From the NCBI GenBank assembly GCA_037349105.1, contig JAYJMM010000099.1:2976001-3040000 (forward strand): DNA of 64,000 nucleotides, in the 5' to 3' direction. This stretch comes from Limnomonas spitsbergensis (lineage: Eukaryota > Chlorophyta > Chlorophyceae > Chlamydomonadales). Shown here one piece after another: positions 3,314 through 26,316 of this stretch; position 1 is the stretch's first letter, and each line of letters begins with the position of its first letter. The notes below the pieces were generated by a model. The model searched no databases, was not told the DNA's origin, and was given only the letters and a program-made list of their open reading frames with translations. The translations under genes and the position numbers were made by a program.

Positions 3314-6300
3314 TTAGCCTTGCTTGCCCAGCTGATTTTGTTTTAGCATTTTGACGGATTGGTACAAGATGGAGTCCAGGATGCCCGCCACGGTGAAAAC
3401 CCCGCCCACAAAGGTGCAAGTCGTCGTGAGGAAATGGTACAACGGCTTGCCGGCCTGCCACACCAATATCTGCGACAGATACCACTCCCTACCTTTACAC
3501 TGGTCAGAACAACCTGAGAGGGGAGGGGGGGCTGCAGTGCAGCAGGGAAGCTCAGCTACGCTTCAGCTACAATTCAACCATGTGTCAGCTACATAGTGGT
3601 ACTGGCCCAGCTGACGGGTACCACTCCCATCCCTTAACACTGGTCAGAACAACCTGAGAGGGGGGGGGGGGGGCTGCAGTGCAGCAGGGAAGCTCAGCTA
3701 CGCTTCAGCTACAATTCAACCATGTGTCAGCTACATAGTGGTAGTGGCTCAGCTGACGGGCACCACTCCCTAGCTCAACACTGGTCAGAACAACCTGAGG
3801 GGGGGGACAGCAGTGCAGCAGGGAAGCTCAGCTACAATTCAAAAATGTGTCAGCAACATGGTGGTAGTGGCTCAGCTGACGGGTACCACTCCCTACCTCA
3901 ACACTGGTCAGAACAACCTGAGGGGGGGGGGCAGCGGTGCAGCAGGGAAGCTCAGCTACGCTTCAGCCACGCTTCAACCATGTGTCAGCTACATAGTGGT
4001 ACTGGCTCAGCTGACGGGTACCACTCCCTATCTCAACACTGGCCAGAACAACCTGAGGGGGGGGGGCAGTGGTGCAGCAGGGAAGCTCAGCTACGCTTCA
4101 GCTACAATTCAACCATGTGTAAGCTACATAGCGATAGTGGCTCAGCTGACGGGTACCACTCCCTACCTCAACACTGGTCAGAACAACCTGAGGGGGGGGG
4201 GCAGCAGGGAAGCTATCCTACACTTCAGCTACAATTCAACCATGTGTCAGCTACATAGTGGTAGTGGCTCAGCTGACGGGTACCACTCCCTAGCTCAACA
4301 CTGGTCAGAACAGCCTGAGGGAAAGAGGGCAGCGGTGCAGCAGGGAACCTCAGCTACACTTCAGCTACAATTCAACCATGTACGTCAGCTACGTAATCAT
4401 AGTGGCTCAGCTGACGGGTACCACTCCCTACCTCAACACTGGTCAGAACAACCTGAGGGGGGGGGGGGGGGCAGCAGTGCAGCAGGGAAGCTCAGCTGCG
4501 CTTCAGCTACAATTCAACCATGTGTCAGCTACATAGTGGTAGTGGCTCAGCTGACGGGTACCACTCCCTAGCTCAACACTGGTCCGAACAACTTGAGGGG
4601 GGGGGCAGCGGTGCAGCAGGGAAGCTCAGCTACACTTCAGCTGCAATTCAAGCATGTGTCAGCTACATAGTGGTAGTGGCTCAGCTGACGGGTACCACTC
4701 CCTACCTCAACACTGGTCAGAACAACCTGAGGGGGGGGGGGGGGCAGCCGTGCAGCAGGAAAGCTCAGCTACGCTTCAGCTACAATTCAACCATGTGTCA
4801 GCTACACAGTGGTAGTGGCTCAGCTGACGGGCACCACTCCCTAGCTCAACACTGGTCAGAACAACCTGTGGGGGGGGGACAGCAGTGCAGCAGGGAAGCT
4901 CAGCTACGCTTCAGCTACAATTCAACCATGTGTCAGCTACATAGTGGTAGTGGCTCAGCTCACGGGTACCACTCCCTAGCTCAACACTGGTCAGAACAAC
5001 CTGAGGGGGGGGGGGGCAGCGGTGCAGCAGGGAAGCTCAGCTACGCTTCAGCCACGCTTCAACCATGTGTCAGCTACATAGTGGTACTGGCTCAGCTGAC
5101 GGGTACCACTCCCTATTTCAACACTGGCCAGAACAACCTGAGGGGGGGGTTGCGGTGCAGCAGGGAAGCTCAGCTACACTTCAGCTACAATTCAACCATG
5201 TGTCAGCTACATAGTGGTAGTGGCTCAGCTGTCGGGTACCACTCCCTACCTCAACACTGGTCAGAACAACCTGAGGGGGGGGTGGGGCAGCGGTGCAGCA
5301 GGGAAGCTCAGCTGCGCTGCAGCTACAATTCAACCATGTGTCAGCTACATAGTGGTAGTGGCTCAGCTGACGGGTACCACTCCCTAGCTCAACACTGGTC
5401 AGAACAACCTGATGAGGGGGGGGGGCAGCAGGGAAGCTATCCTACACTTCAGCTACAATTCAACCATGTGTCAGCTACATAGTGGTAGTGGCTCAGCTGA
5501 CGGGTACCACTCCCTAGCTCAACACTGGTCAGAACAGCCTGAGGGAAAGAGGGCAGCGGTGCAGCAGGGAACCTCAGCTACACTTCAGCTACAATTCAAC
5601 CATGTGTCAGCTACATAGTGGTAGTGGCTCAGCTGACGGGTACCACTCCCTACCTCTACACTAGTCAAAACAACATGAGGGGGGGGGGGGCAGCAGGGAA
5701 GCTCAGCTACGCTTCAGCTACAATTCAACCATGTACGTCAGCTATTTAATCATAGTGGCTCAGCTGACGGGTACCACTCCCTACCTCAACACTGGTCAGA
5801 ACAACCTGAGGGGGGGGGGGCAGCAGTGCAGCAGGGAAGCTCAGCTGCGCTTCAGCTACAATTCAACCATGTGTCAGCTACATAGTGGTAGTGGCTCAGC
5901 TGACGGGTACCACTCCCTAGCTCAACACTGGTCAGAACAGCCTGAGGGAAAGAGGGCAGCGGTGCAGCAGGGAACCTCAGCTACACTTCAGCTACAATTC
6001 AACCATGTGTCAGCTACATAGTGGTAGTGGCTCAGCTGACGGGTACCACTCCCTACCTCTACACTAGTCAAAACAACATGAGGGGGGGGGGGGGCAGCAG
6101 GGAAGCTCAGCTACGCTTCAGCTACAATTCAACCATGTACGTCAGCTACGTAATCATAGTGGCTCAGCTGACGGGTACCACTCCCTACCTCAACACTGGT
6201 CAGAACAACCTGAGGGGGGGGGGGGGCAGCAGTGCAGCAGGGAAGCTCAGCTGCGCTTCAGCTACATTTCAACCATGTGTCAGCTACATAGTGGTAGTGG

Positions 6301-9300
6301 CTCAGCTGACGGGTACCACTCCCTAGCTCAACACTGGTCCGAACAACTTGAGGGGGGGGGCAGCGGTGCAGCAGGGAAGCTCAGCTACACTTCAGCTGCA
6401 ATTCAAGCATGTGTCAGCTACATAGTGGTAGTGGCTCAGCTGACGGGTACCACTCTCTAGCTCAACACTGGTCAGAACAACTTGAGGGGGGGGGCAGCAG
6501 TGCAGCAGGGAACCTCAGCTACACTTCAGCTACAATTCAACCATGTGTCAGCTACATAGTGGTAGTGGCTCAGCTGACGGGTACCACTCCCTACCTCAAC
6601 ACTGGTCAGAACAACCTGAGGGGGGGGGGGGCAGCGGTGCAGCAGGGAAGCTCAGCTACGCTTCAGCCACGCTTCAACCATGTGTCAGCTACATAGTGGT
6701 ACTGGCTCAGCTGACGGGTACCACTCCCTATCTCAACACTGGCCAGAACAACCTGAGGGGGGGGGTTGCGGTGCAGCAGGGAAGCTCAGCTACACTTCAG
6801 CTACAATTCAACCATGTGTCAGCTACATAGTGGTAGTGGCTCAGCTGTCGGGTACCACTCCCAACCTCAACACTGGTCAGAACAACCTGAGGGGGGGGTG
6901 GGGCAGCGGTGCAGCAGGGAAGCTCAGCTGCGCTGCAGCTACAATTCAACCATGTGTCAGCTACATAGTGGTAGTGGCTCAGCTGACGGGCACCACTCCC
7001 TAGCTCAACACTGGTCAGAACAACCTGAGGGGGGGGGGCAGCAGGGAAGCTATCCTACACTTCAGCTACAACTCAACCATGTGTCAGCTACATAGTGGTA
7101 GTGGCTCAGCTGACGGGTACCACTCCCTAGCTCAACACTGGTCAGAACAGCCTGAGGGAAAGAGGGCAGCGGTGCAGCAGGGAACCTCAGCTACACTTCA
7201 GCTACAATTCAACCATGTGTCAGCTACATAGTGGTAGTGGCTCAGCTGACGGGTACCACTACCTACCTCTACACTAGTCAAAACAACATGAGGGGGGGGG
7301 GGGGGGGGCAGCAGGGAAGCTCAGCTACGCTTCAGCTACAATTCAACCATGTACGTCAGCTACGTAATCATAGTGGCTCAGCTGACGGGTACCACTCCCT
7401 ACCTCAACACTGGTCAGAACAACCTGAGGGGGGGGGGGGCAGCAGTGCAGCAGGGAAGCTCAGCTGCGCTTCAGCTACAATTCAACCATGTGTCAGCTAC
7501 ATAGTGGTAGTGGCTCAGCTGACGGGTACCACTCCCTAGCTCAACACTGGTCCGAACAACTTGAGGGGGGGGGCAGCGGTGCAGCAGGGAAGCTCAGCTA
7601 CACTTCAGCTGCAATTCAAGCATGTGTCAGCTACATAGTGGTAGTGGCTCAGCTGACGGGTACCACTCCCTACCTCAACACTGGTCAGAACAACCTGAGG
7701 GGGGGGGGGGGGCAGCCGTGCAGCAGGAAAGCTCAGCTACGCTTCAGCTACAATTCAACCATGTGTCAGCTACACAGTGGTAGTGGCTCAGCTGACGGGC
7801 ACCACTCCCTAGCTCAACACTGGTCAGAACAACCTGTGGGGGGGGGACAGCAGTGCAGCAGGGAAGCTCAGCTACAATTCAGCTACAATTCAACCATGTG
7901 TCAGCTACATAGTGGTAGTGGCTCAGCTCACGGGTACCACTCCCTACCTCAACACTGGTCAGAACAACCTGGGGGGGGGGGGGGGCAGCGGTGCAGCAGG
8001 GAAGCTCAGCTACGCTTCAGCCACGCTTCAACCATGTGTCAGCTACATAGTGGTACTGGCTCAGCTGACGGGTACCACTCCCTATCTCAACACTGGCCAG
8101 AACAACCTGAGGGGGGGGGTTGCGGTGCAGGAGGGAAGCTCAGCTACACTTCAGCTACAATTCAACCATGTGTCAGCTACATAGTGGTAGTGGCTCAGCT
8201 GTCGGGTACCACTTCCAACCTCAACACTGGTCAGAACAACCTGAGGGGGGGGTGGGGCAGCGGTGCAGCAGGGAAGCTCAGCTGCGCTGCAGCTACAATT
8301 CAACCATGTGTCAGCTACATAGTGGTAGTGGCTCAGCTGACGGGTACCACTCCCTAGCTCAACACTGGTCAGAACAACCTGAGGGGGGGGGGGGCAGCAG
8401 GGAAGCTATCCTACACTTCAGCTACAATTCAACCATGTGTCAGCTACATAGTGGTAGTGGTTCAGCTGACGGGTACCACTCCCTAGCTCAACACTGGTCA
8501 GAACAGCCTGAGGGAAAGAGGGCAGCGGTGCAGCAGGGAACCTCAGCTACACTTCAGCTACAATTCAACCATGTGTCAGCTACATAGTGGTAGTGGCTCA
8601 GCTGACGGGTACCACTCCCTACCTCTACACTAGTCAAAACAACATGAGGGGGGGGGGGGGGGGCAGCAGGGAAGCTCAGCTACGCTTCAGCTACAATTCA
8701 ACCATGTACGTCAGCTACGTAATCATAGTGGCTCAGCTGACGGGTACCACTCCCTACCTCAACACTGGTCAGAACAACCTGAGGGGGGGGGGGGGGCAGC
8801 AGTGCAGCAGGGAAGCTCAGCTGCGCTGCAGCTACAATTCAACCATGTGTCAGCTACATAGTGGTAGTGGCTCAGCTGACGGGTACCACTCCCTAGCTCA
8901 ACACTGGTCCGAACAACTTGAGGGGGGGGGCAGCGGTGCAGCAGGGAAGCTCAGCTACACTTCAGCTGCAATTCAAGCATGTGTCAGCTACATAGTGGTA
9001 GTGGCTCAGCTGACGGGTACCACTCTCTAGCTCAACACTGGTCAGAACAACCTGAGGGGGGGGGGGGGGGGGCAGCAGTGCAGCAGGGAAGCTCAGCTAC
9101 ACTTCAGCTACAATTCAACCATGTGTCAGCTACATAGTGGTAGTGGCTCAGCTGTCGGGTACCACTCCCTACCTCAACACTGGTCAGAACAACCTGAGGG
9201 GGGGGTGGGGCAGCGGTGCAGCAGGGAAGCTCAGCTGCGCTGCAGCTACAATTCAACCATGTGTCAGCTACATAGTGGTAGTGGCTCAGCTGACGGGCAC

Positions 9301-12300
9301 CACTCCCTACCTCAACACTGGTCAGAACAACCTGAGGGGGGGGGGGGCAGCAGTGCAGCAGGGAAGCTCAGCTACGCTTCAGCTACAATTCAACCATGTG
9401 TCAGCTACATAGTGGTAGTGGCTCAGCTCACGGGTACCACTCCCTACCTCAACACTGGTCAGAACAACCTGAGGGGGGGGGGGGCAGCGGTGCAGCAGGG
9501 AAGCTCAGCTACGCTTCAGCCACGCTTCAACCATGTGTCAGCTACATAGTGGTACTGGCTCAGCTGACGGGTACCACTCCCTATCTCAACACTGGCCAGA
9601 ACAACCTGAGGGGGGGGGTAGCGGTGCAGCAGGGAAGCTCAGCGACACTTCAGCTACAATTCAACCATGTGTCAGCTACATAGTGGTAGTGGCTCAGCTG
9701 TCGGGTACCACTCCCTACCTCAACACTGGTCAGAACAACCTGAGGGGGGGGTGGGGCAGTGGTGCAGCAGGGAAGCTCAGCTGCGCTGCAGCTACAATTC
9801 AACCATGTGTCAGCTACATAGTGGTAGTGGCTCAGCTGACGGGTACCACTCTCTAGCTCAACACTGGTCAGAACAACCTGAGGGGGGGGGGGGGTAGCAG
9901 TGCAGCAGGGAAGCTCAGCTACGCTGCAGCTACAATTCAACCATGTGTCAGCTACATAGTGGTAGTGGCTCAGCTGACGGGTACCACTCCCTAGCTCAAC
10001 ACTGGTCAGAACAGCCTGATAGAAAGAGGGCAGCGGTGCAGCAGGGAACCTCAGCTACACTTCAGCTACAATTCAACCATGTGTCAGCTACATAGTGGTA
10101 GTGGCTCAGCTGACGGGTACCACTCCCTACCTCTACACTAGTCAAAACAACATGAGGGGGGGGGGGGGGGGGGCAGCAGGGAAGCTCAGCTACGCTTCAG
10201 CTACAATTCAACCATGTACGTCAGCTACGTAATCATAGTGGCTCAGCTGACGGGTACCACTCCCTACCTCTACACTGGTCAGAACAACCTGAGGGGGGGG
10301 GGGGGGGCAGCAGTGCAGCAGGGAAGCTCAGCTGCGCTTCAGCTACAATTCAACCATGTGTCAGCTACATAGTGGTAGTGGCTCAGCTCACGGGTACCAC
10401 TCCCTACCTCAACACTGGTCAGAACAACCTGGGGGGGGGGGGGGGCAGCGGTGCAGCAGGGAAGCTCAGCTACGCTTCAGCCACGCTTCAACCATGTGTC
10501 AGCTACATAGTGGTACTGGCTCAGCTGACGGGTACCACTCCCTATCTCAACACTGGCCAGAACAACCTGAGGGGGGGGGTTGCGGTGCAGGAGGGAAGCT
10601 CAGCTACACTTCAGCTACAATTCAACCATGTGTCAGCTACATAGTGGTAGTGGCTCAGCTGTCGGGTACCACTTCCAACCTCAACACTGGTCAGAACAAC
10701 CTGAGGGGGGGGTGGGGCAGCGGTGCAGCAGGGAAGCTCAGCTGCGCTGCAGCTACAATTCAACCATGTGTCAGCTACATAGTGGTAGTGGCTCAGCTGA
10801 CGGGCACCACTCCCTAGCTCAACACTGGTCAGAACAACCTGAGGGGGGGGGGGGCAGCAGGGAAGCTATCCTACACTTCAGCTACAATTCAACCATGTGT
10901 CAGCTACATAGTGGTAGTGGTTCAGCTGACGGGTACCACTCCCTAGCTCAACACTGGTCAGAACAGCCTGAGGGAAAGAGGGCAGCGGTGCAGCAGGGAA
11001 CCTCAGCTACACTTCAGCTACAATTCAACCATGTGTCAGCTACATAGTGGTAGTGGCTCAGCTGACGGGTACCACTCCCTACCTCTACACTAGTCAAAAC
11101 AACATGAGGGGGGGGGGGGGGGGCAGCAGGGAAGCTCAGCTACGCTTCAGCTACAATTCAACCATGTACGTCAGCTACGTAATCATAGTGGCTCAGCTGA
11201 CGGGTACCACTCCCTACCTCAACACTGGTCAGAACAACCTGAGGGGGGGGGGGGGGCAGCAGTGCAGCAGGGAAGCTCAGCTGCGCTGCAGCTACAATTC
11301 AACCATGTGTCAGCTACATAGTGGTAGTGGCTCAGCTGACGGGTACCACTCCCTAGCTCAACACTGGTCCGAACAACTTGAGGGGGGGGGCAGCGGTGCA
11401 GCAGGGAAGCTCAGCTACACTTCAGCTGCAATTCAAGCATGTGTCAGCTACATAGTGGTAGTGGCTCAGCTGACGGGTACCACTCTCTAGCTCAACACTG
11501 GTCAGAACAACCTGAGGGGGGGGGGGGGGGGCAGCAGTGCAGCAGGGAAGCTCAGCTACACTTCAGCTACAATTCAACCATGTGTCAGCTACATAGTGGT
11601 AGTGGCTCAGCTGTCGGGTACCACTCCCTACCTCAACACTGGTCAGAACAACCTGAGGGGGGGGTGGGGCAGCGGTGCAGCAGGGAAGCTCAGCTGCGCT
11701 GCAGCTACAATTCAACCATGTGTCAGCTACATAGTGGTAGTGGCTCAGCTGACGGGCACCACTCCCTACCTCAACACTGGTCAGAACAACCTGAGGGGGG
11801 GGGGGGCAGCAGTGCAGCAGGGAAGCTCAGCTACGCTTCAGCTACAATTCAACCATGTGTCAGCTACATAGTGGTAGTGGCTCAGCTCACGGGTACCACT
11901 CCCTACCTCAACACTGGTCAGAACAACCTGAGGGGGGGGGGGGCAGCGGTGCAGCAGGGAAGCTCAGCTACGCTTCAGCCACGCTTCAACCATGTGTCAG
12001 CTACATAGTGGTACTGGCTCAGCTGACGGGTACCACTCCCTATCTCAACACTGGCCAGAACAACCTGAGGGGGGGGGTAGCGGTGCAGCAGGGAAGCTCA
12101 GCGACACTTCAGCTACAATTCAACCATGTGTCAGCTACATAGTGGTAGTGGCTCAGCTGTCGGGTACCACTCCCTACCTCAACACTGGTCAGAACAACCT
12201 GAGGGGGGGTGGGGCAGTGGTGCAGCAGGGAAGCTCAGCTGCGCTGCAGCTACAATTCAACCATGTGTCAGCTACATAGTGGTAGTGGCTCAGCTGACGG

Positions 12301-15300
12301 GTACCACTCTCTAGCTCAACACTGGTCAGAACAACCTGAGGGGGGGGGGGGGGTAGCAGTGCAGCAGGGAAGCTCAGCTACGCTGCAGCTACAATTCAAC
12401 CATGTGTCAGCTACATAGTGGTAGTGGCTCAGCTGACGGGTACCACTCCCTAGCTCAACACTGGTCAGAACAGCCTGATAGAAAGAGGGCAGCGGTGCAG
12501 CAGGGAACCTCAGCTACACTTCAGCTACAATTCAACCATGTGTCAGCTACATAGTGGTAGTGGCTCAGCTGACGGGTACCACTCCCTACCTCTACACTAG
12601 TCAAAACAACATGAGGGGGGGGGGGGGGGGCAGCAGGGAAGCTCAGCTACGCTTCAGCTACAATTCAACCATGTACGTCAGCTACGTAATCATAGTGGCT
12701 CAGCTGACGGGTACCACTCCCTACCTCAACACTGGTCAGAACAACCTGAGGGGGGGGGGGGGGGCAGCAGTGCAGCAGGGAAGCTCAGCTGCGCTTCAGC
12801 TACAATTCAACCATGTGTCAGCTACATAGTGGTAGTGGCTCAGCTGACGGGTACCACTCCCTAGCTCAACACTGGTCCGAACAACTTGAGGGGGGGGGCA
12901 GCGGTGCAGCAGGGAAGCTCAGCTACACTTCAGCTGCAATTCAAGCATGTGTCAGCTACATAGTGGTAGTGGCTCAGCTGACGGGTACCACTCCCTACCT
13001 CAACACTGGTCAGAACAACCTGAGGGGGGGGGGGGGGGGGCAGCCGTGCAGCAGGAAAGCTCAGCTACGCTTCAGCTACAATTCAACCATGTGTCAGCTA
13101 CACAGTGGTAGTGGCTCAGCTCACGGGTACCACTCCCTACCTCAACACTGGTCAGAACAACCTGGGGGGGGGGGGGGGCAGCGGTGCAGCAGGGAAGCTC
13201 AGCTACGCTTCAGCCACGCTTCAACCATGTGTCAGCTACATAGTGGTACTGGCTCAGCTGACGGGTACCACTCCCTATCTCAACACTGGCCAGAACAACC
13301 TGAGGGGGGGGGTTGCGGTGCAGCAGGGAAGCTCAGCTACACTTCAGCTACAATTCAACCATGTGTCAGCTACATAGTGGTAGTGGCTCAGCTGTCGGGT
13401 ACCACTTCCAACCTCAACACTGGTCAGAACAACCTGAGGGGGGGGTGGGGCAGCGGTGCAGCTGGGAAGCTCAGCTGCGCTGCAGCTACAATTCAACCAT
13501 GTGTCAGCTACATAGTGGTAGTGGCTCAGCTGACGGGCACCACTCCCTAGCTCAACACTGGTCAGAACAACCTGAGGGGGGGGGGGGCAGCAGGGAAGCT
13601 ATCCTACACTTCAGCTACAATTCAACCATGTGTCAGCTACATAGTGGTAGTGGTTCAGCTGACGGGTACCACTCCCTAGCTCAACACTGGTCAGAACAGC
13701 CTGAGGGAAAGAGGGCAGCGGTGCAGCAGGGAACCTCAGCTACACTTCAGCTACAATTCAACCATGTGTCAGCTACATAGTGGTAGTGGCTCAGCTGACG
13801 GGTACCACTCCCTACCTCTACACTAGTCAAAACAACATGAGGGGGGGGGGGGGGCAGCAGGGAAGCTCAGCTACGCTTCAGCTACAATTCAACCATGTAC
13901 GTCAGCTACGTAATCATAGTGGCTCAGCTGACGGGTACCACTCCCTACCTCAACACTGGTCAGAACAACCTGAGGGGGGGGGGGGGCAGCAGTGCAGCAG
14001 GGAAGCTCAGCTGCGCTGCAGCTACAATTCAACCATGTGTCAGCTACATAGTGGTAGTGGCTCAGCTGACGGGTACCACTCCCTAGCTCAACACTGGTCC
14101 GAACAACTTGAGGGGGGGGGCAGCGGTGCAGCAGGGAAGCTCAGCTACACTTCAGCTGCAATTCAAGCATGTGTCAGCTACATAGTGGTAGTGGCTCAGC
14201 TGACGGGTACCACTCTCTAGCTCAACACTGGTCAGAACAACCTGAGGGGGGGGGGGGGGGCAGCAGTGCAGCAGGGAAGCTCAGCTACACTTCAGCTACA
14301 ATTCAACCATGTGTCAGCTACATAGTGGTAGTGGCTCAGCTGTCGGGTACCACTCCCTACCTCAACACTGGTCAGAACAACCTGAGGGGGGGGTGGGGCA
14401 GCGGTGCAGCAGGGAAGCTCAGCTGCGCTGCAGCTACAATTCAACCATGTGTCAGCTACATAGTGGTAGTGGCTCAGCTGACGGGCACCACTCCCTAGCT
14501 CAACACTGGTCAGAACAACCTGAGGGGGGGGGGGGCAGCAGTGCAGCAGGGAAGCTCAGCTACGCTTCAGCTACAATTCAACCATGTGTCAGCTACATAG
14601 TGGTAGTGGCTCAGCTCACGGGTACCACTCCCTACCTCAACACTGGTCAGAACAACCTGAGGGGGGGGGGGGCAGCGGTGCAGCAGGGAAGCTCAGCTAC
14701 GCTTCAGCCACGCTTCAACCATGTGTCAGCTACATAGTGGTACTGGCTCAGCTGACGGGTACCACTCCCTATCTCAACACTGGCCAGAACAACCTGAGGG
14801 GGGGGGTAGCGGTGCAGCAGGGAAGCTCAGCGACACTTCAGCTACAATTCAACCATGTGTCAGCTACATAGTGGTAGTGGCTCAGCTGTCGGGTACCACT
14901 CCCTACCTCAACACTGGTCAGAACAACCTGAGGGGGGGGTGGGGCAGTGGTGCAGCAGGGAAGCTCAGCTGCGCTGCAGCTACAATTCAACCATGTGTCA
15001 GCTACATAGTGGTAGTGGCTCAGCTGACGGGTACCACTCTCTAGCTCAACACTGGTCAGAACAACCTGAGGGGGGGGGGGGGTAGCAGTGCAGCAGGGAA
15101 GCTCAGCTACGCTGCAGCTACAATTCAACCATGTGTCAGCTACATAGTGGTAGTGGCTCAGCTGACGGGTACCACTCCCTAGCTCAACACTGGTCCGAAC
15201 AACTTGAGGGGGGGGGCAGCGGTGCAGCAGGGAAGCTCAGCTACACTTCAGCTGCAATTCAAGCATGTGTCAGCTACATAGTGGTAGTGGCTCAGCTGAC

Positions 15301-18300
15301 GGGTACCACTCTCTAGCTCAACACTGGTCAGAACAACCTGAGGGGGGGGGGGGGGCAGCAGTGCAGCAGGGAAGCTCAGCTACACTTCAGCTACAATTCA
15401 ACCATGTGTCAGCTACATAGTGGTAGTGGCTCAGCTGTCGGGTACCACTCCCTACCTCAACACTGGTCAGAACAACCTGAGGGGGGGGTGGGGCAGCGGT
15501 GCAGCAGGGAAGCTCAGCTGCGCTGCAGCTACAATTCAACCATGTGTCAGCTACATAGTGGTAGTGGCTCAGCTGACGGGCACCACTCCCTAGCTCAACA
15601 CTGGTCAGAACAACCTGAGGGGGGGGGGGGCAGCAGTGCAGCAGGGAAGCTCAGCTACGCTTCAGCTACAATTCAACCATGTGTCAGCTACATAGTGGTA
15701 GTGGCTCAGCTCACGGGTACCACTCCCTACCTCAACACTGGTCAGAACAACCTGAGGGGGGGGGGGCAGCGGTGCAGCAGGGAAGCTCAGCTACGCTTCA
15801 GCCACGCTTCAACCATGTGTCAGCTACATAGTGGTACTGGCTCAGCTGACGGGTACCACTCCCTATCTCAACACTGGCCAGAACAACCTGAGGGGGGGGG
15901 TAGCGGTGCAGCAGGGAAGCTCAGCGACACTTCAGCTACAATTCAACCATGTGTCAGCTACATAGTGGTAGTGGCTCAGCTGTCGGGTACCACTCCCTAC
16001 CTCAACACTGGTCAGAACAACCTGAGGGGGGGGTGGGGCAGTGGTGCAGCAGGGAAGCTCAGCTGCGCTGCAGCTACAATTCAACCATGTGTCAGCTACA
16101 TAGTGGTAGTGGCTCAGCTGACGGGTACCACTCTCTAGCTCAACACTGGTCAGAACAACCTGAGGGGGGGGGGGGTAGCAGTGCAGCAGGGAAGCTCAGC
16201 TACGCTGCAGCTACATTTCAACCATGTGTCAGCTACATAGTGGTAGTGGCTCAGCTGACGGGTACCACTCCCTAGCTCAACACTGGTCAAAACAACCTGA
16301 GGGGGGGGACAGCGTGGCAGCAGGGAAGCTCAGCTACGCTTCAGCTACAATTCAACCATGTGTCAACCACGCCTTTCACCACATCAGAACAGCTAATTAA
16401 CGCTAGTGTGTGCTTTGGGGTGCTCCGAAACCGTCAATTGCCTTCACACTCCCCAGCGCACACCTGTAGGTAATGCTCGTGTGTGCTCTGGGGGTGCTCC
16501 GAAAGAAAGCCCTGACCGTGCACTTTATCCGCCCACTCAGCTTGTAGACCTGATCAGAAGAAGGGGCACCCAACAGGGTGTGCACTTCATGCACACTGAA
16601 AATGGTATGTGGGAACCAAACAACTTGCATGCAAATGAGGGGAGCAGGCGGTGCAGGAGGGGGGTAGGGGGTAGCAGGCAAATTGAGACTGATCGTGCGG
16701 CACTTTTTTTTACTTGAACAAGCAGGAACAAGGGCAGGCATGCGTGGCACATGCTGCAGAGTAAACTGGCCTGAGGACAGACTACAGTAAAGAGTGACCA
16801 GCCAGAGACTACACACCATTAAGGAGTGACCAGCTGGAGACTACACACCATTAAGGAGTGACCAGCTGGAGACTACACACCATTAAGGAGTGACCAGCTG
16901 GAGACCACACACCATTAAGGAGTATCCTGGACAGGGCATGCGTTTGATAAAGAGTGGGCTGGCCAAGGGATACAAACAACTAAGGAGTGGGCTGGCCAGG
17001 GGATGCACTAGATAAAAGAGTGGGCTGGCCAGGGGATGCACTAGATAAAAGAGTGGGCTGGCCAGGGGATGCACTAGATGAAAGAGTGGGCTGGCCAGGG
17101 GATGCACTAGATGAAAGAGTGGGCTGGCCAGGGGATGCACTAGATGAAAGAGTGGGCTGGCCAGGGCATGCACTAGATAAAGAGTGGGCTGGCCAAATAG
17201 GATACACACAATAAACAGGCTGCGCTGTTTCCTTAACTCTCACGCCCCCCACGGGGCGTAGTTTTATTTCTTTCTTTCTACACACAATAAACACACAATA
17301 CAACAGTGGCATGTCCTGGGCATGCCTTATGTTCAAAAACGAACTGGCTAGGGCAGTATTCGTTGGCCTAGGCAAGCCCTAACAACACAAATATGGTTTA
17401 GTGCTTAAGTTGTCTCATACTTGCAGGCCGAGGTTCACCTTCATCAAAGGAAGCAGAAAACAAGAAAGCTATTACCTTTAGGGGCGTGGAGCAGGGGTCT
17501 AAAATGGGGTCTGGGAACTGACCGGTTTAGCCGGGCACTTTTTCCCTACTCTCCGGTCTTTTTTTCCGAGCCGGAGTCATCTTTTTTTCCCGTCCGGTTT
17601 TCCGAAATAGTGTGAAAAGTGTGATTTTTTCTTCCCGCTCATTACAAACTGTTCGATCTTCTCTAGTCTCAAAAGACACTCCTAGACACAAACCTGCACA
17701 CACACATAACTACAGTTTATCCTCCTCTTTTGGAGCTGTCGGAAGAGGTAGGGAATCGAGGGCGTATATCAGGTAGGCTTTCAAGGTGCCGGCTGCCTGA
17801 GGGAAGATCACCAGCGAGACGAGAGAGGAGGCTGTTTCGGCTGGGGCTGTTTCGTCTTTTTCGGCTGGGGCGGTTTCGGTGAGGTCGATCTCAACCTCGA
17901 CTTCGCGACGTTGCTCCTCGACTTCGAGACGTGGCTAGCTCCTTCGCTTTGTCTAACGACCACATGCCGAAGTTGAAGGGTTGGCTAGCAGACAAGCGCT
18001 CTTTAGAACCACTAGCCATAATGGCGTGCTGAGAGTATGTTCAAGGGAAGAAACATGGAACAGCCGGGGAGAATAAGAGCCGGATAAGAGTTTGTGGGTC
18101 TCCGGCCCCAAATCACGAAAGCCGGAGAACATTCATACTTTCCCCTTTTTTTCCGACTTCGCCGGAACCCCCCTCTCGCATTTCCCCGGCTTTTTTTTCT
18201 TTTGTCCAATTCTGTCCGGGAACCGACCGGTTTGTAGAGCCCTGGCGTGGAGATTAAGGGATCAACACCACTTGGGGCCAGAGCCACATCCGCACCGTCA

Positions 18301-20467
18301 CCATTAGTTGCTGTATTCCTGCTGCAGCCTGAACAAAAGGATGGCAAGCATGGTGCATGGCGCATGGTTCATGGCGCATGGTGCATGGCACATGGGTGAC
18401 ATGGCGCATGGCACATAACGGGTTGTTCAGGCACTCACTGTCTCACTGAACAATAACATGCCGTTCAGGGCACTCCCTGAACAAGGCCAGGCCCGACGCA
18501 CCTGCCGGGTGCAGGCGCTGAAGCAGGCTGAGCTTCCGAGCCGACGGCCGGCTTTCAAAATAGAAGCTGTGTATTGTGTGCCTCATGTCCATCCGGGAGT
18601 GGTCGAAGGTGAGCGCCGTGCTGTGCGCCGCAAAGCGCCAAGTGCCTGGCACCTTCTTGACCAGGACAAAGCCTGTGGGATTGCATGTGTGAGGGTTGAG
18701 GGATCCGGGGCTGATTAGGGTTTATAATTTAATTAGGGTTCTTGGCTCTGTCATATTGAGCGCAAGGTGCCTGGCACCTTCTTGATCTGAAGGAAGCCTG
18801 TGCGGATTGCATGTGAGGGGGGTTCAAAGGGTGGGGTTTGATCAGGGTTCCTAACTTTGCGTGATGCAAAGCGCGAGTTACTTGACGAAACGAAGCTTGT
18901 GTACGTTTATGTCTTTTGGGGGTAAAGGGTTTGGGGTTTGATAAGGGTTCCTGGCTTTGTGAAGATAAGCGTAGGTTGCCTGGCACCTTCTTGATATGAA
19001 CGATGCATGTGCATGCCATGTGTGGGTGCATGTGGGGGGAGGTCAAAGTTTGGGAATATGATTGGGGTGATTGGCTCTGCGCCGCGAAGTGCAGTGTTCT
19101 AAACTGTCCTGCCTCACCTCAACTGCCACGTAACCAACCAACTGCTGCTCAAACCGCCTCACCTGCCATGTTGCACACACTGCTCGGTGGTGTTGGCTGC
19201 CATGAAACCGCCTATATTGTCATGCCTCACCTCAACTGCCACGTAACCAACCAACTGCTGCTCAAACCGCCTCACCTGCCATGTTGCACACACTGCTCGG
19301 TGGTGTTGGCTGCCATGAAACCGCCTATATTGTCATGCCTCACCTCAAATGCCACGTAACCACGCAACTGCCATGTGAACCGCCTCATCTGTCATGTTGC
19401 AACCATTGCTATTTGGCGCCTCCTTGACTGCCATGCAACCAAATCAACAGTCACTTAACCGCCTCAACTACCACATAACCACCCAACTGCCATTTGAGAC
19501 CACCCACCTGCCTGCAGGTGCTCGTGTCTCACATGGGGCTGGCCGACGCAGGGAATGAGGCTGTCAGCAAACGCAACCAACGCCTCCTTAGTGCTGGTCT
19601 CCGGTGTAGGACTGGTGATCTTGCGCCTACGCTGGCAGGCAGGGCAGGGGGGTTGGTGCAGGGAGAGGGCTAGGTGTTGGTAACGATGAAATAAGCTTGT
19701 CGGCAAATTTGACCAGGCCCCCCTTCCTGCGATCTCATAGCCTTGCTCCCACGGTTTTGATGTGGGAATTAGTGATTGGTGTATTGGGGTAGCAAAGTAG
19801 GTGTTGGGGAGGGGGAGGGGGATCGGCAGATGCAACCTGCGCCTGTAAAGTTCGGTCCCCGGTGTGGGACTGGATGTCTCCCATGCCTTTAAACAGTCAT
19901 CAGTTCTAGCCAAACTGCTTCGGTTGGTCTGCCTTAAGAGCAGTTAGGTAGAACATTTTGTCGGGTAGGTTATCTGGGTCAGAAGGGGTTGAAAGCTCTC
20001 CTAGATAGATCCATCCAACAAGTCTCTTTGCCTCATATATATGCAATATATCACCCATCAAGGGCATGAAGCTCAGGCAAAGCCGGGGCAGGGGGGGTGG
20101 GGGTGGGAGGGTGCGGGCACCCAAGTCCTCACCCCCCCGAGGCCAACATAGCGTTCCAACATAACACGAATTAGGCCTGGGGTCACTTGCCCCTCCCGCA
20201 CTGTCATCAGCATGGAGCCGCTCACGTGACTCACCCCTCCAATGCTCATCTCAATGGACAAGGGACGCTCACCCCCCCCACTCCATCCACCAGGTCACTC
20301 AGCCTCCTACCACATAGACCAAGTTACTCAACCTCCCCCCCCATCAGCCTTGAGCCACTCACCCCTCCAATCCTGATCTCATTGTGACCCTTCCTGAAGA
20401 CCCTGATGGCAGGGAATCCCATGATGAAGTAGCCTTGACACTGATCCACCTCAGCAGTGCAGTCCAC
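3314..20467 (-). CDS. PDIL5: PDIL5-type protein: PDI thioredoxin domain fused to ERV41/46-ERGIC cargo-receptor domain (C-terminal exons)
   Basis: This is a multi-exon minus-strand gene. Recognised exons:
- 20467-20363: thioredoxin-like part with Val-Asp-Cys-Thr, Gly-Phe-Pro-Ala-Ile-Arg-Val and Phe-Arg-Lys-Gly, then GTGAGT.
- 19619-19508: Glu-Ala-Leu-Val-Ala-Phe-Ala-Asp-Ser-Leu.
- 18672-18502: Val-Lys-Lys-Val-Pro-Gly, then a FDHSRMDMRHTIHSFYF segment.
- 16549-16464: ends Glu-His-Tyr-Leu-Gln, donor GTGTGC.
- 3469-3314: Phe-Val-Gly-Gly-Val-Phe-Thr-Val-Ala-Gly-Ile-Leu-Asp-Ser, the conserved last membrane segment, a basic tail and TAA.
Intron phases agree at these junctions (0, 1, 1, 0). Family knowledge: such proteins are ER/Golgi membrane proteins of the early secretory pathway. 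The N-terminus (including the Cys-x-x-x catalytic region) and the stretch just before the last exon were not found as unique exons. The exon at 19619 carries a frame drift relative to its family (an Asp-His-Gln-Ser-Tyr-x-Gly-Asp reading lies in another frame). Function may be intact or failing. Confidence 0.85.
3514..16376 (-). repeat. ~135-bp satellite, about 95 monomers, inside an intron of the PDIL5-like gene; each full monomer carries an exon copy
   Basis: Monomers run 123-142 bp, mostly about 135. Each has KpnI (GGTACC) and PvuII (CAGCTG) sites and a G-run of 7 to about 18 bases on the plus strand. On the minus (gene-sense) strand the G-run becomes a C-tract followed by CTCAG, a textbook 3' splice acceptor. 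It is followed in phase 0 by codons beginning Val-Val-Leu-Thr-Ser-Val-Glu-Val and containing Ser-His-Tyr-His-Tyr-Val-Ala-Asp. The upstream exon ends Glu-His-Tyr-Leu-Gln in phase 0, and PDIL5 homologues continue with a comparable Val-x-Thr-x-Val ... Tyr-x-Tyr segment. Monomer variants (for example His-Tyr-Asp-Tyr-Val-Ala-Asp) keep the frame. Blocks of ~2.46-2.97 kb recur as higher-order repeats. Open frames on the plus strand here are by-products. Confidence 0.9.
16385..16464 (-). repeat. Partial duplicate of the EHYLQ-exon beside its donor
   Basis: Immediately downstream of the GTGTGC donor (minus strand), the phrase TTTCGGAGCACCCC with the following AGCACACAC repeats the exon's own internal sequence at about 16,470-16,510. 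It is followed by a TTAG and a diverged first copy of the satellite exon start (TGTTCTGATGTGGTGAAAGG). The exon boundary was therefore duplicated before the array proper begins. Confidence 0.55.
16787..16925. repeat. 33-bp minisatellite, about 4 copies
   Basis: Units read AAGGAGTGACCAGCTGGAGA followed by CTACACACCATT. They lie in the intron between the 18.6-kb and 16.5-kb exons of the PDIL5-like gene. Confidence 0.85.
16935..17205. repeat. 33-bp minisatellite (GAGTGGGCTGGCCAGGGGAT), about 8 copies
   Basis: Units are GAGTGGGCTGGCCAGGGGAT plus GCACTAGATAAAA or GCACTAGATGAAA. The 33-bp length keeps one frame open on each strand (repeated Gly-Trp-Pro-Gly-Asp-Ala-Leu-Asp), which is a repeat artefact. 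The edge units are more diverged than the central ones. Confidence 0.88.
17215..17282 (+). mobile_element. LINE 3' tail fragment with conserved hairpin
   Basis: CAGGCTGCGCTGTTTCCTTA, a hairpin at 17242-17259 (ACGCCCC / GGGGCGT) and a (CTTT)n tail match the 3' end of the LINE remnant at 26255-26316. This is an extremely 5'-truncated insertion or a short element sharing the same 3' tail. Confidence 0.7.
17492..18244. mobile_element. Non-autonomous hAT-type DNA transposon, 753 bp, with 8-bp target-site duplication
   Basis: The element begins CAGGGGTCTAAAA and ends with the inverse of CAGGGCTCTACAA (11 of 13 bases match). It is flanked on both sides by the identical 8-mer GCGTGGAG (17484-17491 and 18245-18252). 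Eight-base duplications and CAGGG-type ends are hallmarks of the hAT superfamily. Subterminal copies of ACYGACCGGTTT lie near both ends. No transposase is encoded. A minus-strand open stretch (about 17.72-17.94 kb, Glu/Ala-rich then Leu-Val-Ile-Phe-Pro) has no start codon and may be captured coding sequence. It sits inside an intron of the PDIL5-like gene. Confidence 0.88.
18338..18422. repeat. Short ATGG-rich repeat
   Basis: GCATGGTGCATGGCGCATGG-type 10-11 bp units repeat imperfectly about seven times, just downstream of the 18.5-kb exon. Confidence 0.7.
18640..19080 (-). repeat. ~115-bp tandem repeats containing copies of an exon's splice acceptor and first codons
   Basis: On the minus strand the real exon begins after CCCACAG with codons for Phe-Val-Leu-Val-Lys-Lys-Val-Pro-Gly. 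Upstream of it (18,750-18,800 and 18,970-19,010) diverged copies repeat the phrase TCAAGAAGGTGCCAGGCA, with leading ...GCACAGGCTTCC or similar and trailing AGGAACCCT. A third, more degenerate copy lies at about 18,870-18,900. Only the copy nearest the exon body leads into a long open frame. The others hit stops quickly. Confidence 0.75.
19111..19470. repeat. 113-bp intronic tandem repeat, about 3 copies
   Basis: GCCTCACCTCAACTGCCACG starts at 19111, 19224 and 19337. The first two copies are nearly identical and the third is diverged. On the gene-sense (minus) strand the units contain GGCAGGTGAGG and GAGGTGAGGC, both donor-like. Confidence 0.85.
19500..19910 (-). repeat. Diverged tandem copies of the Ala-Leu-Val-Ala-Phe-Ala-Asp exon
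   Basis: Besides the used exon (19619-19508), two further minus-strand segments read like the same exon. About 19,900-19,830 gives Asp-Ile-Gln-Ser-His-Thr-Gly-Asp-Arg-Thr. About 19,715-19,690 gives Gly-Leu-Val-Lys-Phe-Ala-Asp-Lys-Leu-Ile. They are mutated and out of mutual phase, so they are probably relics of exon-containing duplications. Confidence 0.55.
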
Positions 20468-22157: not shown

Positions 22158-22660
22158 GTAAGTATTGAGGTTGCATGGAGGGTGGGGGCGCCATCGCAAG
22201 GCAAGCCCTTTTTTCGCCTCCATGTTGGGTGATGCACCAAAAGACGGCGTGGGGGTGTGATGCTGACCGTAGCGGCAGCGGGAGCAGGTATGCTAGTGGC
22301 AGATGCGAAAGGAGAGGTGGGGGGGGAGTCATGAGTGGAGTATGTGACGCATGGTGTGTACCTTTCACCCCAACATCCCACTGCTGAGAGGCCACAACGC
22401 CGGCCAATGTACAATGACTGCATGGGAGCCCCCCCCCCTTCATGTCAGATGATGGGCACTCCACATGTTGGTGTACTCCCCAACTCCATCATGGGAGTGC
22501 AGGGGAATCCTGCCATCCCCCCCAACTGACCATGAACTCCCATGCCCTCCTGTCGGCCCTCATGCCACCAACCTCCTCTCCGCTCCGCCCTCTTGTCCAC
22601 CCACCTGCCCAGCCAACTTCATGTTTGGGGCCCACCCGATGCCCGAACAGGAGGATCCAG

Positions 22661-23302
22661 AAAAGTGACGCTAGAGAGCCTCGACAAGAAATTGTATGCC
22701 ATTCTGGACATGTCCTTGTTCGGGGTTTTGTCGAGCTGCCTAGGTGGCCCCCCCGAGATCAAACGGAAGTTGGCCAAGGAATTTGAAGACTATCAACCGC
22801 CCGTGCCTCACCCCTGTCCGGCAAACCCCAACAAGATGTGTTCTTCAATTATGCTTGTTTCAAAGGGGGCACTTAGGCATGCAACTCTTAAAATTTAGTG
22901 GATGCCTTGTCCAATGGCAGAGCTTTTAGCTATGCGTTAATAATGTTGCTATTGATGTTTAAAGGCTAATGTGATGAAGAGTCATTTTAAGTCACACATC
23001 TAAACTTTGTTTTGAACGTGTATTATATGTGGGATGTACATCGCGAAACCATATGTGCATTTTTGCAACCGAATGTATTCGCATGAGACGTCACTTCACT
23101 TAGGCTGCAACGCATGCAATAACTGCTCTCAATGCCGGCTCGCGCGGAAAGCATATAGTGGAAGGTCCTGGCCAACATCACTGACCAAGATGATTGAGAC
23201 CAAGCCAACCAAACTGGCGGCCTTGACAAAGAAGATGTTGCTTAAGCCTAAGGACGTTTTGGCGTGCTTGAAGATCAAGCCAGAGGTCCTGCTGTCTCCA
23301 AG
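22661..23302 (+). CDS. Unidentified gene with a C-x2-C-x2-C-x2-C cluster (left palindrome arm)
   Basis: There are two exon-like parts. The first begins after GGATCCAG at 22661 and encodes a helical-looking segment (Glu-Ser-Leu-Asp-Lys-Lys-Leu ... Glu-Ile-Lys-Arg-Lys-Leu-Ala-Lys-Glu). The second, 23104-23302, lies between acceptor CTTCACTTAG and donor GTAAGG. It encodes Cys-Asn-Ala-Cys-Asn-Asn-Cys-Ser-Gln-Cys followed by a basic Lys/Arg-rich tail. Four cysteines at two-residue spacing suggest metal binding, but no named family is assigned. The same exons occur inverted in the right arm. How the two parts join was not resolved. Confidence 0.45.
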
Positions 23303-23497
23303 GTAAGGAGCTAGTTTTCTTCAATAAGTAGTTCTCAGTGTTACCGGTCTACCGTATGCAGCTGCGTAAGGCCCGATCACCCCGACCTGGGCGGCCAAGT
23401 CACCGAGAGTGTTATTACGTGTGAAAAACGCAGCCGCCTACGGTAGATAGGTAACACTGAGAAGTACTTATTGAACTGAAGAAAACTAGCTCCTTAC

Positions 23498-24160
23498 CTT
23501 GAAGACAGTTGGACCTCTGGCTTGATCTTCAAGCACGCCAAGACGTCCTAAGGCTTCATCACCATCTTCTTTGTCAAGGCCGCCAGTTTGGCTGGCTTGG
23601 TCTCAATCATCTTGGTCAGTGATGCTGGCCAGGACCTTCCACTCCATGCTTTCCGCGCGAGCCGGCACTGAGAGCATTTCTTGCATGCGTTGCAGCCTAA
23701 GTGAAGTGACGTCTCTTGCAAATACATTCGGTTGCAAAAATGCACATATGGTTTCGCGATGTACATCCCACACATAATACACGCTCAAAACAAAGTTTAG
23801 ATGTGCGACTTAAAATGACTCTTCATCACATTGGCCTTTGAACATCAATAGCAACATTATTAACACATAATTAAAAACTCTGCCATTGGACAAGGCATCC
23901 ATTGAATTTTAAGGGTTTCAGGCCTAAGTGCCCCCTTTGAAACAAGCATACATAAAGAACACACATTGTTGGGGTATGCCGGGCAGGGGTGAGGCACGGG
24001 ATGCTAACAGTCTTCAAATTCCTTGGCCAACTTCCGTTTGATCTCGGGGGGGCCATCTCGGAAGCTCGACAAAACCCCGACCAAAGCCATGTCCAGAATG
24101 GCATCCAATTTCTTGTCGAGGCTCTCTAGCGTCACTTTTCTGGATCCTCATGTTCAGGCA
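23498..24160 (-). pseudogene. Inverted second copy of the Cys-cluster gene, with a premature stop
   Basis: The minus-strand copy has the matching 199-base exon (23696-23498, same acceptor and donor). It reads Cys-Asn-Ala-Cys-Lys-Lys-Cys-Ser-Gln-Cys, but a Lys codon of the left copy is TAG here (after Met-Lys-Pro). The first part (24160-24010) ends in a stop after Glu-Asp-Cys, where the left copy reads on. Most other differences are substitutions. Confidence 0.55.
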
Positions 24161-24739
24161 TCGGGTGGGCCCCGTACATGAGGTTGGCTGGGTAGGTGGG
24201 TGGACAAGAGGGCGGAGCGGACAGGAGGTTGGTGGGCAGGACGGCCGACAGGAGGGCATGGGAGTTAAGGGTCAGTTCAGGGGGATGGCATGATTCCGCT
24301 GCACTCCCATGTTGGTGTAAGGGAGTGAACCAACATGAGGAGTGCCCATCATCTGACATGAAGGTGTGTATGTGTTCCCATGCAGTCATTGTATATTGGC
24401 CGGCGCTGTGGCCTCTCAACAGGGGGATGTTGGGGCGACAGGTCGGTACATACCTGGCGCGACATATTCCACTCATGACCCCCCCACACACCTCCCCTTT
24501 CGCACCTGCCTTTGGCAGACCTGCTCCCGCTGCCGCCACGGTCAGCATCACACCCCCACGCCGTCTTGTGGTGCATCACCCAACAGGGAGGCGAAAAAAA
24601 GGCTCACCTTGCGATGGCGCCCCCACCCTCCGTGAAACACGTCCGTGACTACGGTATATCATACATACCATACATAAATCACTGTGACAGTACCGTATCT
24701 CACGTTTTACAGCTCTTCCACATCCGCCTTTGAAGACAT

Positions 24740-26316
24740 CTGGATGTGTCCCTTAATGGTTAGTGGCAGCATGCTTCGTTGGCCTTGGAATGTTTCAGTC
24801 TTAAGATCACCATTAACCCGGGTGGAGAAGGTCCCACAAACACCATAAACAGAGCCGAGTTGGCAGGAATCTATGGAGCCCTAGTAAAAGAACATACCAA
24901 AATAGCTATTGACAGCGCCACATCCTTGTACCAAATCCGAAAAGCTATCCGATCCCCCATGTCTCTCACCTACCACAAGCACAAAGACCTCCTCCAGCAT
25001 GTTGTGGGCCAACTCCAGCTCATGGCGTCCCAAGGAAAAATAGTCGAATTCCATAAGGTGAAGGCCCACAACGGAGATATCGGAAACGAGAAAGCCGACG
25101 GGGTCGCTAAACGGGAAGCCACTCAAAAGGGAGAATGCGATCTGACCGTTCAAGTGAGCTCCGAACCCTCACAATACGGCTCTTTCTGGCTTTTCACAAA
25201 ACCTGACGAAGAGGACCCTAGCCAGGGAGAGCCGCAAGGATTAGAGGATCTGAAGGGTGCCTTGAAGACACACACTCACGAGCGCCAAAAGCTGGGCCGA
25301 TCCAACATCGATAGCGTATACTTTCAAGGGTGGAAACGGTTGCACTCGATTGCTGATGGGACCCTCAGCAACAGTTTCTTTAACCACCCAGGAGTCACTC
25401 TGGCGGAGAAGAAAACAGCCCTTCGATGGTGACATGGATGCCTTTGGAATAACAAGGTGGCTTTCAAGTGGGGCAAAAGTACCACGGACAAATGCCCCTT
25501 GTGTTGTGAGCACGACAGTGCATGCCATATCACGGGCGCATGCAGGCACCCCGAAATGCAAAAGATGTACATAGAGCGCCACCATGGCACATGAAGGTTT
25601 TTGCTGAGGGCTGTATCGAAAGGCAGCATGGGAGGGGACATCGTCATGGCAGACATGGGGACGGCCGATAAGTGTGAGAGAGCAGGAGCACCAGCCATGC
25701 TGATGAATAAAGTCCCCTCGTACTTTATCCCCCACGCTGCGGCACCAGCACTTGGAGCCGTCCAAATGAAAACGAAAATGCAGCCTGGCATGTTGTTGAT
25801 GCAAACGACAAGACAAAAAAAGGACTTTGTAGTCCACATTGGGGAATTGAAGTATTGCAGAGACAATGAGCATGGGGACCAGTTAAAAGCGTGCTTAAAA
25901 CAACACACTAACCTCGTTGAGCTACTGATCCTGAACGGGCACCAACGAAACAATATAAAAATTATTCCAATCTTGATCGGCACATCGGGCACTATTTATA
26001 ATAAGCACACAATTGAAGCCATGATGTCTCTAGGGATCACCGCGTTCCATGCCAAGAAATGCGCCCAGAAAATGCATGTCCATTCGATAAAACTCTTGCA
26101 TAGCATAGTACAAGCCAGACGCAGACTCGAATATTTTTCCGCCACAAAGCCTGTCACTGGGCCAATAAAGCACACCCATAAGAGGAAACCACCGTGAGGA
26201 AGTTTTTTTTTTTTTTGCCTCATGGTAACGGCGCGGATGTGGCTACGGCCCCAAGCTGCGTTGTTTCCTTACCCTCCACGCCCTAATAGGGCGTAGCTTT
26301 CTTTCTTTCTTTCTAT
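24740..26316 (+). mobile_element. 5'-truncated non-LTR retrotransposon (LINE) end
   Basis: The order RNase H domain, zinc knuckle, conserved C-terminal region, hairpin (26278-26294) and (CTTT)n tail is that of a LINE 3' portion. Reverse transcriptase and endonuclease domains are absent, as expected for 5' truncation on insertion. A T-run lies at 26203-26216 in the 3' UTR. No target-site duplication was identified. The left end is uncertain. Confidence 0.8.
24779..26197 (+). pseudogene. LINE polyprotein remnant: RNase H, zinc knuckle and C-terminal region
   Basis: One frame runs through with two in-frame TGA codons (about 25430 and 25591). RNase H features: Asn-Arg-Ala-Glu-Leu-Ala-Gly-Ile (catalytic Glu), Ile-Ala-Ile-Asp-Ser-Ala (catalytic Asp) and His-Asn-Gly-Asp-x-Gly-Asn-Glu-Lys-Ala-Asp (last Asp). 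The first catalytic Asp is missing at the truncated 5' end. Past the first stop a Cys-Pro-Leu-Cys ... His ... Cys knuckle of the RVT-associated type and an Arg-His-His segment follow. The last 200 codons are the conserved tail seen after such knuckles in LINEs. Not functional. Confidence 0.82.

Follow-up and report, generated by a model that had tools for sequence, protein, structure and literature searches.

An orphaned, satellite-sized array of exon-edge copies in a PDI5-4/ERGIC-type gene remnant of the green alga Limnomonas spitsbergensis

Can a single gene hold almost one hundred tandem copies of one of its own exons, and how would the spliceosome then choose among them? This question is raised by a 64,000-nt stretch of the genome of the green alga Limnomonas spitsbergensis (Chlorophyta, Chlamydomonadales; assembly GCA_037349105.1, contig JAYJMM010000099.1, positions 2,976,001 to 3,040,000 of the forward strand), hereafter the window, where a tandem array of about 13 kb lies inside a gene of the PDI5-4/ERGIC type. 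The original prediction, made from the letters of the window, regarded the ~135-bp monomer as an amplified exon of the host gene, so that splicing would have to select among ~95 acceptors, with exon skipping, multi-inclusion proteins, circular RNAs or a dead gene as possible outcomes. Our analysis favours a different answer: the array is very probably a “mirage” minisatellite, where a short duplication of an intron/exon junction, tolerated within an intron, was expanded to 95 units in what is now a dead copy of the gene.

The nature of the host can be read from its paralogues in the assembly that we searched (260,226,709 bases in 124 contigs). Matches to the last exon of the gene occur on contig C78 and at three places on C99, the 3.27-Mb contig of the window (window included), with weaker ones on C28 and C21. 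Two of these loci, C78 (957452-949847, minus strand) and C99a (C99:1284119-1296201, plus strand), were modelled by hand as genes of 13 exons with a 476-aa frame and GT-AG introns, and their exon lengths are equal. The ratio of nonsynonymous to synonymous divergence between them (dN/dS, Nei-Gojobori) is 0.088 at a synonymous divergence (dS) of 1.56, and both genes have therefore been constrained for a long time. The C99a protein carries the domains PF13850, PF00085 and PF07970 (ERGIC_N, thioredoxin and COPIIcoated_ERV), all of them above the curated cut-offs; its best match is 73% identical, and its named close relatives are chlorophyte proteins, such as that of Volvox africanus (68%). Another locus, C99b (at ~1.371 Mb on C99), is a fragment with exons 12 and 13 only within the 40 kb of sequence ending there. 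These comparisons identify the host as a PDI5-4/ERGIC-type gene, whose window copy keeps exons 8, 10, 11 and 13 together with part of exon 9. The family, strand and phase that had been proposed for it were right, as were the presence of a splice acceptor in the monomer and the link of the monomer with a host exon. The features of this copy are the following:

3317..3469, minus strand: exon 13, the last coding exon, starting ILVWQAGKPLYHF at 3469 in phase 0 and reading ILVWQAGKPLYHFLTTTCTFVGG..., with the stop codon TAA at 3314-3316
3470..3520, minus strand: deletion scar, where the last unit of the array (exon start 3513) breaks off within its exon part and continues directly as the 3′ end of intron 12
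3480..16365, minus strand: array of 95 exon-edge units with a mean spacing of 136 bp, delimited by Tandem Repeats Finder (TRF), a unit scan and homology to exon 12 of C99a and C78
16402..16431, minus strand: degraded exon-side copy of the 3′ edge of exon 11, within intron 11
16464..16549, minus strand: exon 11, ending ...STHEHYLQ at 16464 in phase 0, donor GTGTGC
18502..18672, minus strand: exon 10, open
18759..18994, minus strand: degenerate copies of the 5′ edge of exon 10, one straddling the junction (18849-18759) and one of the exon side only (18994-18967); also tblastn matches
19118..19419, minus strand: three copies of the 3′ edge of exon 9 with its donor region, in intron 9 (a donor mirage), coinciding with a 113-bp TRF array at 19105-19401
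19508..19626, minus strand: exon 9 remnant, frameshifted, with the last 30 of 148 nt missing
20175..20253, minus strand: copy of the 3′ edge of exon 8 with its donor region, in intron 8
20363..20467, minus strand: exon 8, the most 5′ exon that this copy retains

The array is described by TRF with a period of 138 (94.8 copies), or of 272 as a dimer. A scan with the exon-start sequence counts 95 units, with exon starts from 16296 (first) to 3513 (last) and spacings of 123-142 bp, in good agreement with the predicted ~95 copies of a ~135-bp monomer. In the sense of the gene, each unit consists of a C-run, then usually CTCAG, and then GTTGTTCTGACCAGTGTTGAG... or a near variant. These signals are less uniform than had been thought: CTCAG, supposed to occur in every unit, is present in 70 out of 95, and the dinucleotide before the exon edge is AG in 78 units, AA in 9 and AT in 8 (17 of the 95 have no AG). 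The longest C-run within 40 nt 5′ of the edge does have the expected 7-18 residues in 86 units, but only three in the other nine, whereas the peptide YHYVAD, which every monomer was said to reach, is encoded by 79 of the 95 and is not part of the true exon. At least 23 open codons follow in 93 of the 95 units, and the mean pairwise identity among the 94 full units is 90.6%.

Alignment with the paralogues indicates what is repeated. The exon upstream of the array ends EHYLQ in phase 0 and the last exon resumes after it in phase 0, both as anticipated; the two paralogues read EHYLQ|VVLTTVE... and EHYLQ|VVLTSVE... across the junction of exons 11 and 12, and the chlorophyte members among the ten homologues compared read alike; VVLTSVE is indeed the continuation of the family at this point. 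The unit matches the 3′ end of intron 11 and the first ~48-51 nt of the 141-nt exon 12 (51 nt were aligned to C99a). Past RQLS, its sequence diverges from that of the true exon 12 (YDAYEYTAHNHAF...), and the donor of exon 12 is absent from it. Since so small a part of the exon is covered and no exon donor is included, the unit is a duplicated acceptor edge, not the duplicated exon that had been proposed, and the amplification of a whole exon is rejected. A comparison with tandem exon arrays, such as the Dscam exon clusters, LPA kringle IV or nebulin, leads to the same distinction. Their units are complete exons, with both splice sites used. The window array shares with them the many exon-derived copies inside one gene, but its unit amounts to about one third of an exon (~50 of 141 nt) and bears one genuine splice site instead of a complete exon with acceptor and donor, and the window gene lacks the intactness of hosts whose tandem exons are included.

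The comparison of codon positions among the monomers that accompanied the original prediction gives no coding signature. Diversity at the three positions is 0.084, 0.037 and 0.048, so the third is not in excess, and the distinct variants are few (8 at 13.3 synonymous sites and 12 at 34.7 nonsynonymous sites, a mild nonsynonymous deficit in small numbers); coding selection on the units is rejected. Of the two parts of the unit, the exon-like one is the less diverse (0.056, against 0.086 for the intron-like one when the C-run is set aside), a weak test given the repeated copying of units in blocks. A check of the monomer peptide against the protein family had also been suggested: two monomer peptides (28 and 41 aa) gave no match in Pfam, and the homology came instead from the paralogues of the same genome. 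A fixed higher-order repeat is rejected as well, as the mean identity between units hardly varies with their lag, apart from minor peaks at 11, 18, 20, 22 and 28, and the longest run of near-identical neighbours is 8, at lag 18. The periodicity of the array is nested and irregular. On the plus strand, stop-free frames of up to 341 aa run through the array (3638-16275), most likely as an effect of its tandem periodicity.

Is there a working gene around these 95 acceptor edges? The C99a protein, searched against the whole window, matches exons 8, 9, 10, 11 and 13 and the array, and exons 1-7 have no match anywhere in the 64 kb. The last unit (3513) ends after GGGAGTGGT and is followed by the 3′ end of intron 12; as its intron side is of the decoy type, the true exon 12 and its donor are gone from this copy, where exon 12 is only partially represented. 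If translation continues directly from the last unit into exon 13, the frame is not maintained. The window copy, being truncated, frameshifted and deprived of its true exon 12, is thus a dead gene as far as its sequence can tell. With exons 1-7 absent, exon 9 frameshifted and exon 12 deleted, no intact gene here would choose among 95 acceptors, and among the outcomes listed earlier it is the dead gene that fits both this damage and the substitutions. The changes private to each copy since the split are 9 synonymous and 23 nonsynonymous ones in the window and 8 and 5, respectively, in C99a, as counted over exons 8-11 and 13 (209 of 219 codons, with C78 as the outgroup, and omitting exon 12 and gapped codons). 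Against a neutral nonsynonymous share expected to be 0.77, the window copy is not different (p=0.53) and C99a is (p=0.003; Fisher test between both, p=0.048). In line with the structural damage, and on few changes, the window copy has changed as neutral DNA would since leaving C99a.

Decoys of the same family occur at the two other loci of contig C99. Nine array units precede the true exon 12 in C99a (at C99:1295730; VVLTSVELGSGVRQLSYDAYEYTAHNHAFQSDNVPATKVSFDLSPMQ, then the donor), the inner ones nearly identical to each other, and two units precede exon 12 in C99b. At the intron 11/exon 12 junction of C78 there is no array, and the sole TRF array in that gene is a 13-bp repeat in intron 7. 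Copy numbers of 95, 9 and 2 at three paralogous loci reveal instability with homogenisation, as seen between paralogues. Typical inner decoys, compared among the three loci, are 88-94% alike, and only 69-75% like the true edges of C99a and C99b, for which the mutual value is 90.5%; the outermost units of C99a and C99b (A01 and B01) and the cut last unit of the window (W95) are more diverged. In a tree of the 95 window, nine C99a and two C99b decoys with the true edges of C99a, C99b and C78, all decoys form one group (support 0.89), with the three true edges outside and the C99a and C99b units placed among those of the window. Decoys that group apart from the true edges, with their loci intermixed, indicate that the decoy family is older than the split of the C99 copies. 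Intron 12 of C99b also contains (C99:1371468-1371518) a piece like the 3′ end of exon 12 with its donor (...AAGGTCTCTTTCGACCTTTCGCCGTATCAG|GTGAGG).

Exon-edge copies are not restricted to this junction. We compared each junction of the modelled genes (up to 90 nt of exon and up to 60 nt of intron) with the adjacent intron (blastn, E 1e-3, self-matches removed). In C99a, 8 of the 24 junctions have copies straddling the exon edge in the adjacent intron, 29 copies in total, which correspond to the acceptors of introns 4, 7, 9 and 11 and to the donors of introns 6, 7, 9 and 11; an exon-derived match of some kind was found at 10 of the 24. Controls in C99a gave 0/24 on the minus strand and 0/220 in non-adjacent introns, and the same test in C78 gave 0/24 in adjacent introns, 0/24 on the minus strand and 0/220 in non-adjacent ones. 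An initial test, which took 30 nt of exon and used Markov shuffles, agrees (7/24 in C99a, 0/24 in C78). Intron 11 of C99a keeps the AG in 8 of 9 acceptor copies and the GT in both donor copies, the 3′ edge of exon 11 forming a 74-bp repeat of 2.9 copies, and in intron 9 the splice dinucleotide is lost in 3 of 6 copies. Straddling copies in the window belong to the donors of exons 8 and 9 and to the acceptor of exon 10, with an exon-side piece only for exon 11. The introns of C99a sum up to 10.7 kb, versus 6.2 kb in C78.

Other genes were sampled in a small and non-random way, with exon segments taken from profile matches instead of complete gene models. On C99, a chaperonin gene of the CCT type (L051) shows upstream copies of the 5′ part for 3 of 7 exon segments (81, 91 and 92% identity), as well as a 20-nt identical stretch, matches in G-rich simple repeat and one 24-nt minus-strand match. 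On C21, the acceptor edge of an ERGIC-type exon (PF07970, E 2e-10) recurs upstream in two copies with 87% and 78% identity, besides shorter ones and one 23-nt minus-strand match. The seven exon segments of a CCT-type gene on C61 have no same-strand copy, with a single 25-nt match on the minus strand, and the one exon checked on C28 has no edge copies. Altogether, 3 of the 6 gene loci examined, C99a and C78 included, are positive.

Repeats of this kind have precedents. Mirage minisatellites, whose repeats straddle an exon/intron junction, were described in the amphioxus globin genes BflGb6 and BflGb9 (PMC3087553), and a report on the lancelet PGBD5 gene presents similar repeats and cites those of Adh and troponin C (PMC3902484). 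The absence of any described case, as originally suggested, does not hold for the phenomenon, though the amphioxus cases are not of this scale. As in the descriptions from amphioxus, here we find minisatellite-like tandem units over the boundary (the intron 11 end with its mostly conserved AG, plus the start of exon 12), duplications on both the donor and the acceptor sides, in C99a and in the window, and splice dinucleotides kept in many, though not all, copies. The differences lie in the host, a green alga instead of a chordate; in the number of units, which is 6 and 3 in the BflGb6 haplotypes reported there, versus 9 in C99a and 95 in the window; in the number of junctions affected within one gene, 8 of 24 in C99a; and in the state of the window locus, a pseudogene from which the original exon edge has been lost. 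The window array can then be placed among these known repeats as an orphan of satellite size, longer by an order of magnitude. Our literature search, which left most subscription papers uncovered, found no report of mirage-type repeats outside amphioxus among the papers listed, and a phenomenon known from amphioxus only in that literature can now be extended to a green alga, at both intron ends and at half of the gene loci examined, with an array that shows the length such a repeat can reach in a dead host. Intron gain by tandem genomic duplication has also been reported (PMC4974935); that case likewise involves a tandem duplication within a gene with a bearing on splice sites, but here it is an existing intron that enlarges, and a new intron in coding sequence was not seen.

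How could such an array have arisen? The ancestor on contig C99 would have undergone a short tandem duplication that took in the end of an intron and the start of the next exon. A copy bearing an acceptor with no partner donor would be plain intron whenever splicing uses the true exon, and so it would be tolerated; a duplication of a whole exon with both splice sites would alter the mRNA and be eliminated, and this would account for our finding only units that straddle a single junction. Copy number would then have been altered by unequal exchange or replication slippage, growing to 95 in the window copy, possibly after its death. In C99a, where the introns are longer than in its paralogue C78, this may be one route to intron lengthening. 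The intact C99a gene poses a more demanding question, which is how the spliceosome ignores eight near-perfect copies of a required acceptor. In intron 11 of C99a, two decoy donors follow the true donor and eight AG-bearing decoy acceptors precede the true acceptor. Splicing would pass these decoys by exon definition, as the true edge alone is followed by a complete exon with its own donor; with the true edge outermost, nearest-site pairing would pick wrongly and exon definition rightly, which makes this intron a natural test of exon definition. A branch-point-like CTGAC, located 28 nt before the true AG in C99a (30 nt in C99b), possibly assists the choice, and CTNAY occurs within 70 nt in none of the nine and two decoys of these loci.

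Some observations weigh against a mirage origin or limit it. The authentic edge beside the cluster, which is part of the description of mirages, is missing in the window; it is present in C99a and C99b, and the window array is an orphan of the family that retains it there. Few changes underlie the selection test on the window copy, and both the silence of this copy and the accurate splicing of C99a are predictions from DNA sequence. That the gene died first and the array expanded later is a supposition, possible as it may be. The CTGAC is a weak clue, since CTNAY is also missing from the last ~70 nt of 10 of the 24 modelled introns. Finally, the count of 95 and the lengths of the C-runs depend on the assembly: if this is the published one, obtained from PacBio continuous long reads and polished, its description gives reads with an L50 near 33 kb, which can span 13 kb and leave C-run lengths uncertain, and also reports IsoSeq data (PMC11228838). 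A much broader proposal, that tandem duplication of exon edges is a main engine of intron growth throughout the genome of this alga, seems to us doubtful, if conceivable. Were it true, each intron of its genes would hold several intact decoy donors and acceptors inside the outermost, true pair, and splicing would have to depend on exon definition and not on nearest-site pairing.

Among the other explanations, the one that survives best, though we find it improbable, is an amplification driven by a mobile or introner-like element carrying the dispersed motif TGTAGCTGAA. The motif has 21,440 copies in 260 Mb, against 186 for the reversed word, the doubled motif TGTAGCTGAANTGTAGCTGAA has 2,422 genome-wide, against none for either the reversed or a permuted word, and TGTAGCTGAA adjoins the exon-edge copies of the C21 ERGIC-type gene. 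But introns 4, 6 and 9 of C99a, all with mirages, are devoid of the motif (up to one mismatch), and the whole unit was found elsewhere only at C99a and C99b, a lower bound from a weak test, as the search missed the window array itself. A preliminary acceptor-side scan for the motif gave 125 matches for the forward pattern, many of them inside the window array. As for the motif itself, it lies inside the array units of the window, where it adjoins the exon-edge copies, and also at L032, L051 and C99:1276101-1401800; it is often phased at 11 or 22 bp, frequently in minisatellites, and is perhaps the end of a dispersed repeat.

A living PDI/ERGIC gene that selects among ~95 acceptors, with skipping, multi-inclusion or circular RNAs as results, we judge to be very unlikely. 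All 78 units with AG reach or exceed the median score of true acceptors under a small model derived from the 24 modelled introns, and exons 11 and 13 have open frames that are in phase; these acceptors, nonetheless, belong to a copy that lacks exons 1-7 as well as the true exon 12 with its donor, has a frameshift in exon 9 and shows neutral-like substitution on few changes, and 17 of its 95 units have lost the AG. Highly improbable too is a tandem microexon array, in which a 21-nt, phase-0 VVLTSVE between the AG and a GT at position 22 could be included any number of times, in frame, between exons 11 and 13. That GT (mostly GAG|GTAGGG) does occur in 46 of the 95 units, with a median score of 6.8 versus a median of 8.0 and a minimum of 2.0 for true donors, and 38 units have AG and GT together, 37 of them encoding VVLTSVE and one VVLTSVK; yet all of the 46 score below the true-donor median, the nine C99a decoys without exception have CT instead of GT at that position, and the window gene is broken in exon 9. 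An ordinary intronic satellite with a chance likeness to an exon has a negligible probability, common as arrays are in the window (TRF arrays cover 45% of it), given that 51 nt can be aligned, differing at few positions, with the beginning of exon 12 in C99a and that 0/220 control pairs match; with 95 units at such identity, and units of the same family at the same junction of two paralogous loci, a chance origin of the likeness is excluded.

With the mirage minisatellite as the preferred explanation of the array, some further features of the window and its contig can be described. At 1092-1632, TRF finds an 86-bp array of 6.3 copies whose unit contains CCCAG CGACACAGCCTTG GTGAGT, that is, acceptor- and donor-like signals around 13 nt, and which may be another exon-edge repeat. 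A large inverted repeat occupies 22170-24638, with arms at 22565-23323 and 23477-24235 (759 nt, 92% complementary, 153 nt apart) and more paired blocks outside these longest arms. An RNase H domain (PF00075, E 1.3e-10) is encoded at 24764-25429 on the plus strand, probably as a piece of a retroelement, and two WD40 frames (PF00400) with similar peptides, apparently duplicated, are found on the minus strand at 57517-58446 and 49207-49839. Contig C99 begins with CCCTAAA telomere repeats and bears second copies of the PDI5-4 gene (also on C78) and, by matching hit patterns, of the CCT-type gene (also on C39). The coverage of C99 by TRF arrays is 45, 25 and 39% in three large stretches and 4% in one of 10 kb, and it may be asked whether C99 represents a repeat-rich chromosome of duplicated genes.

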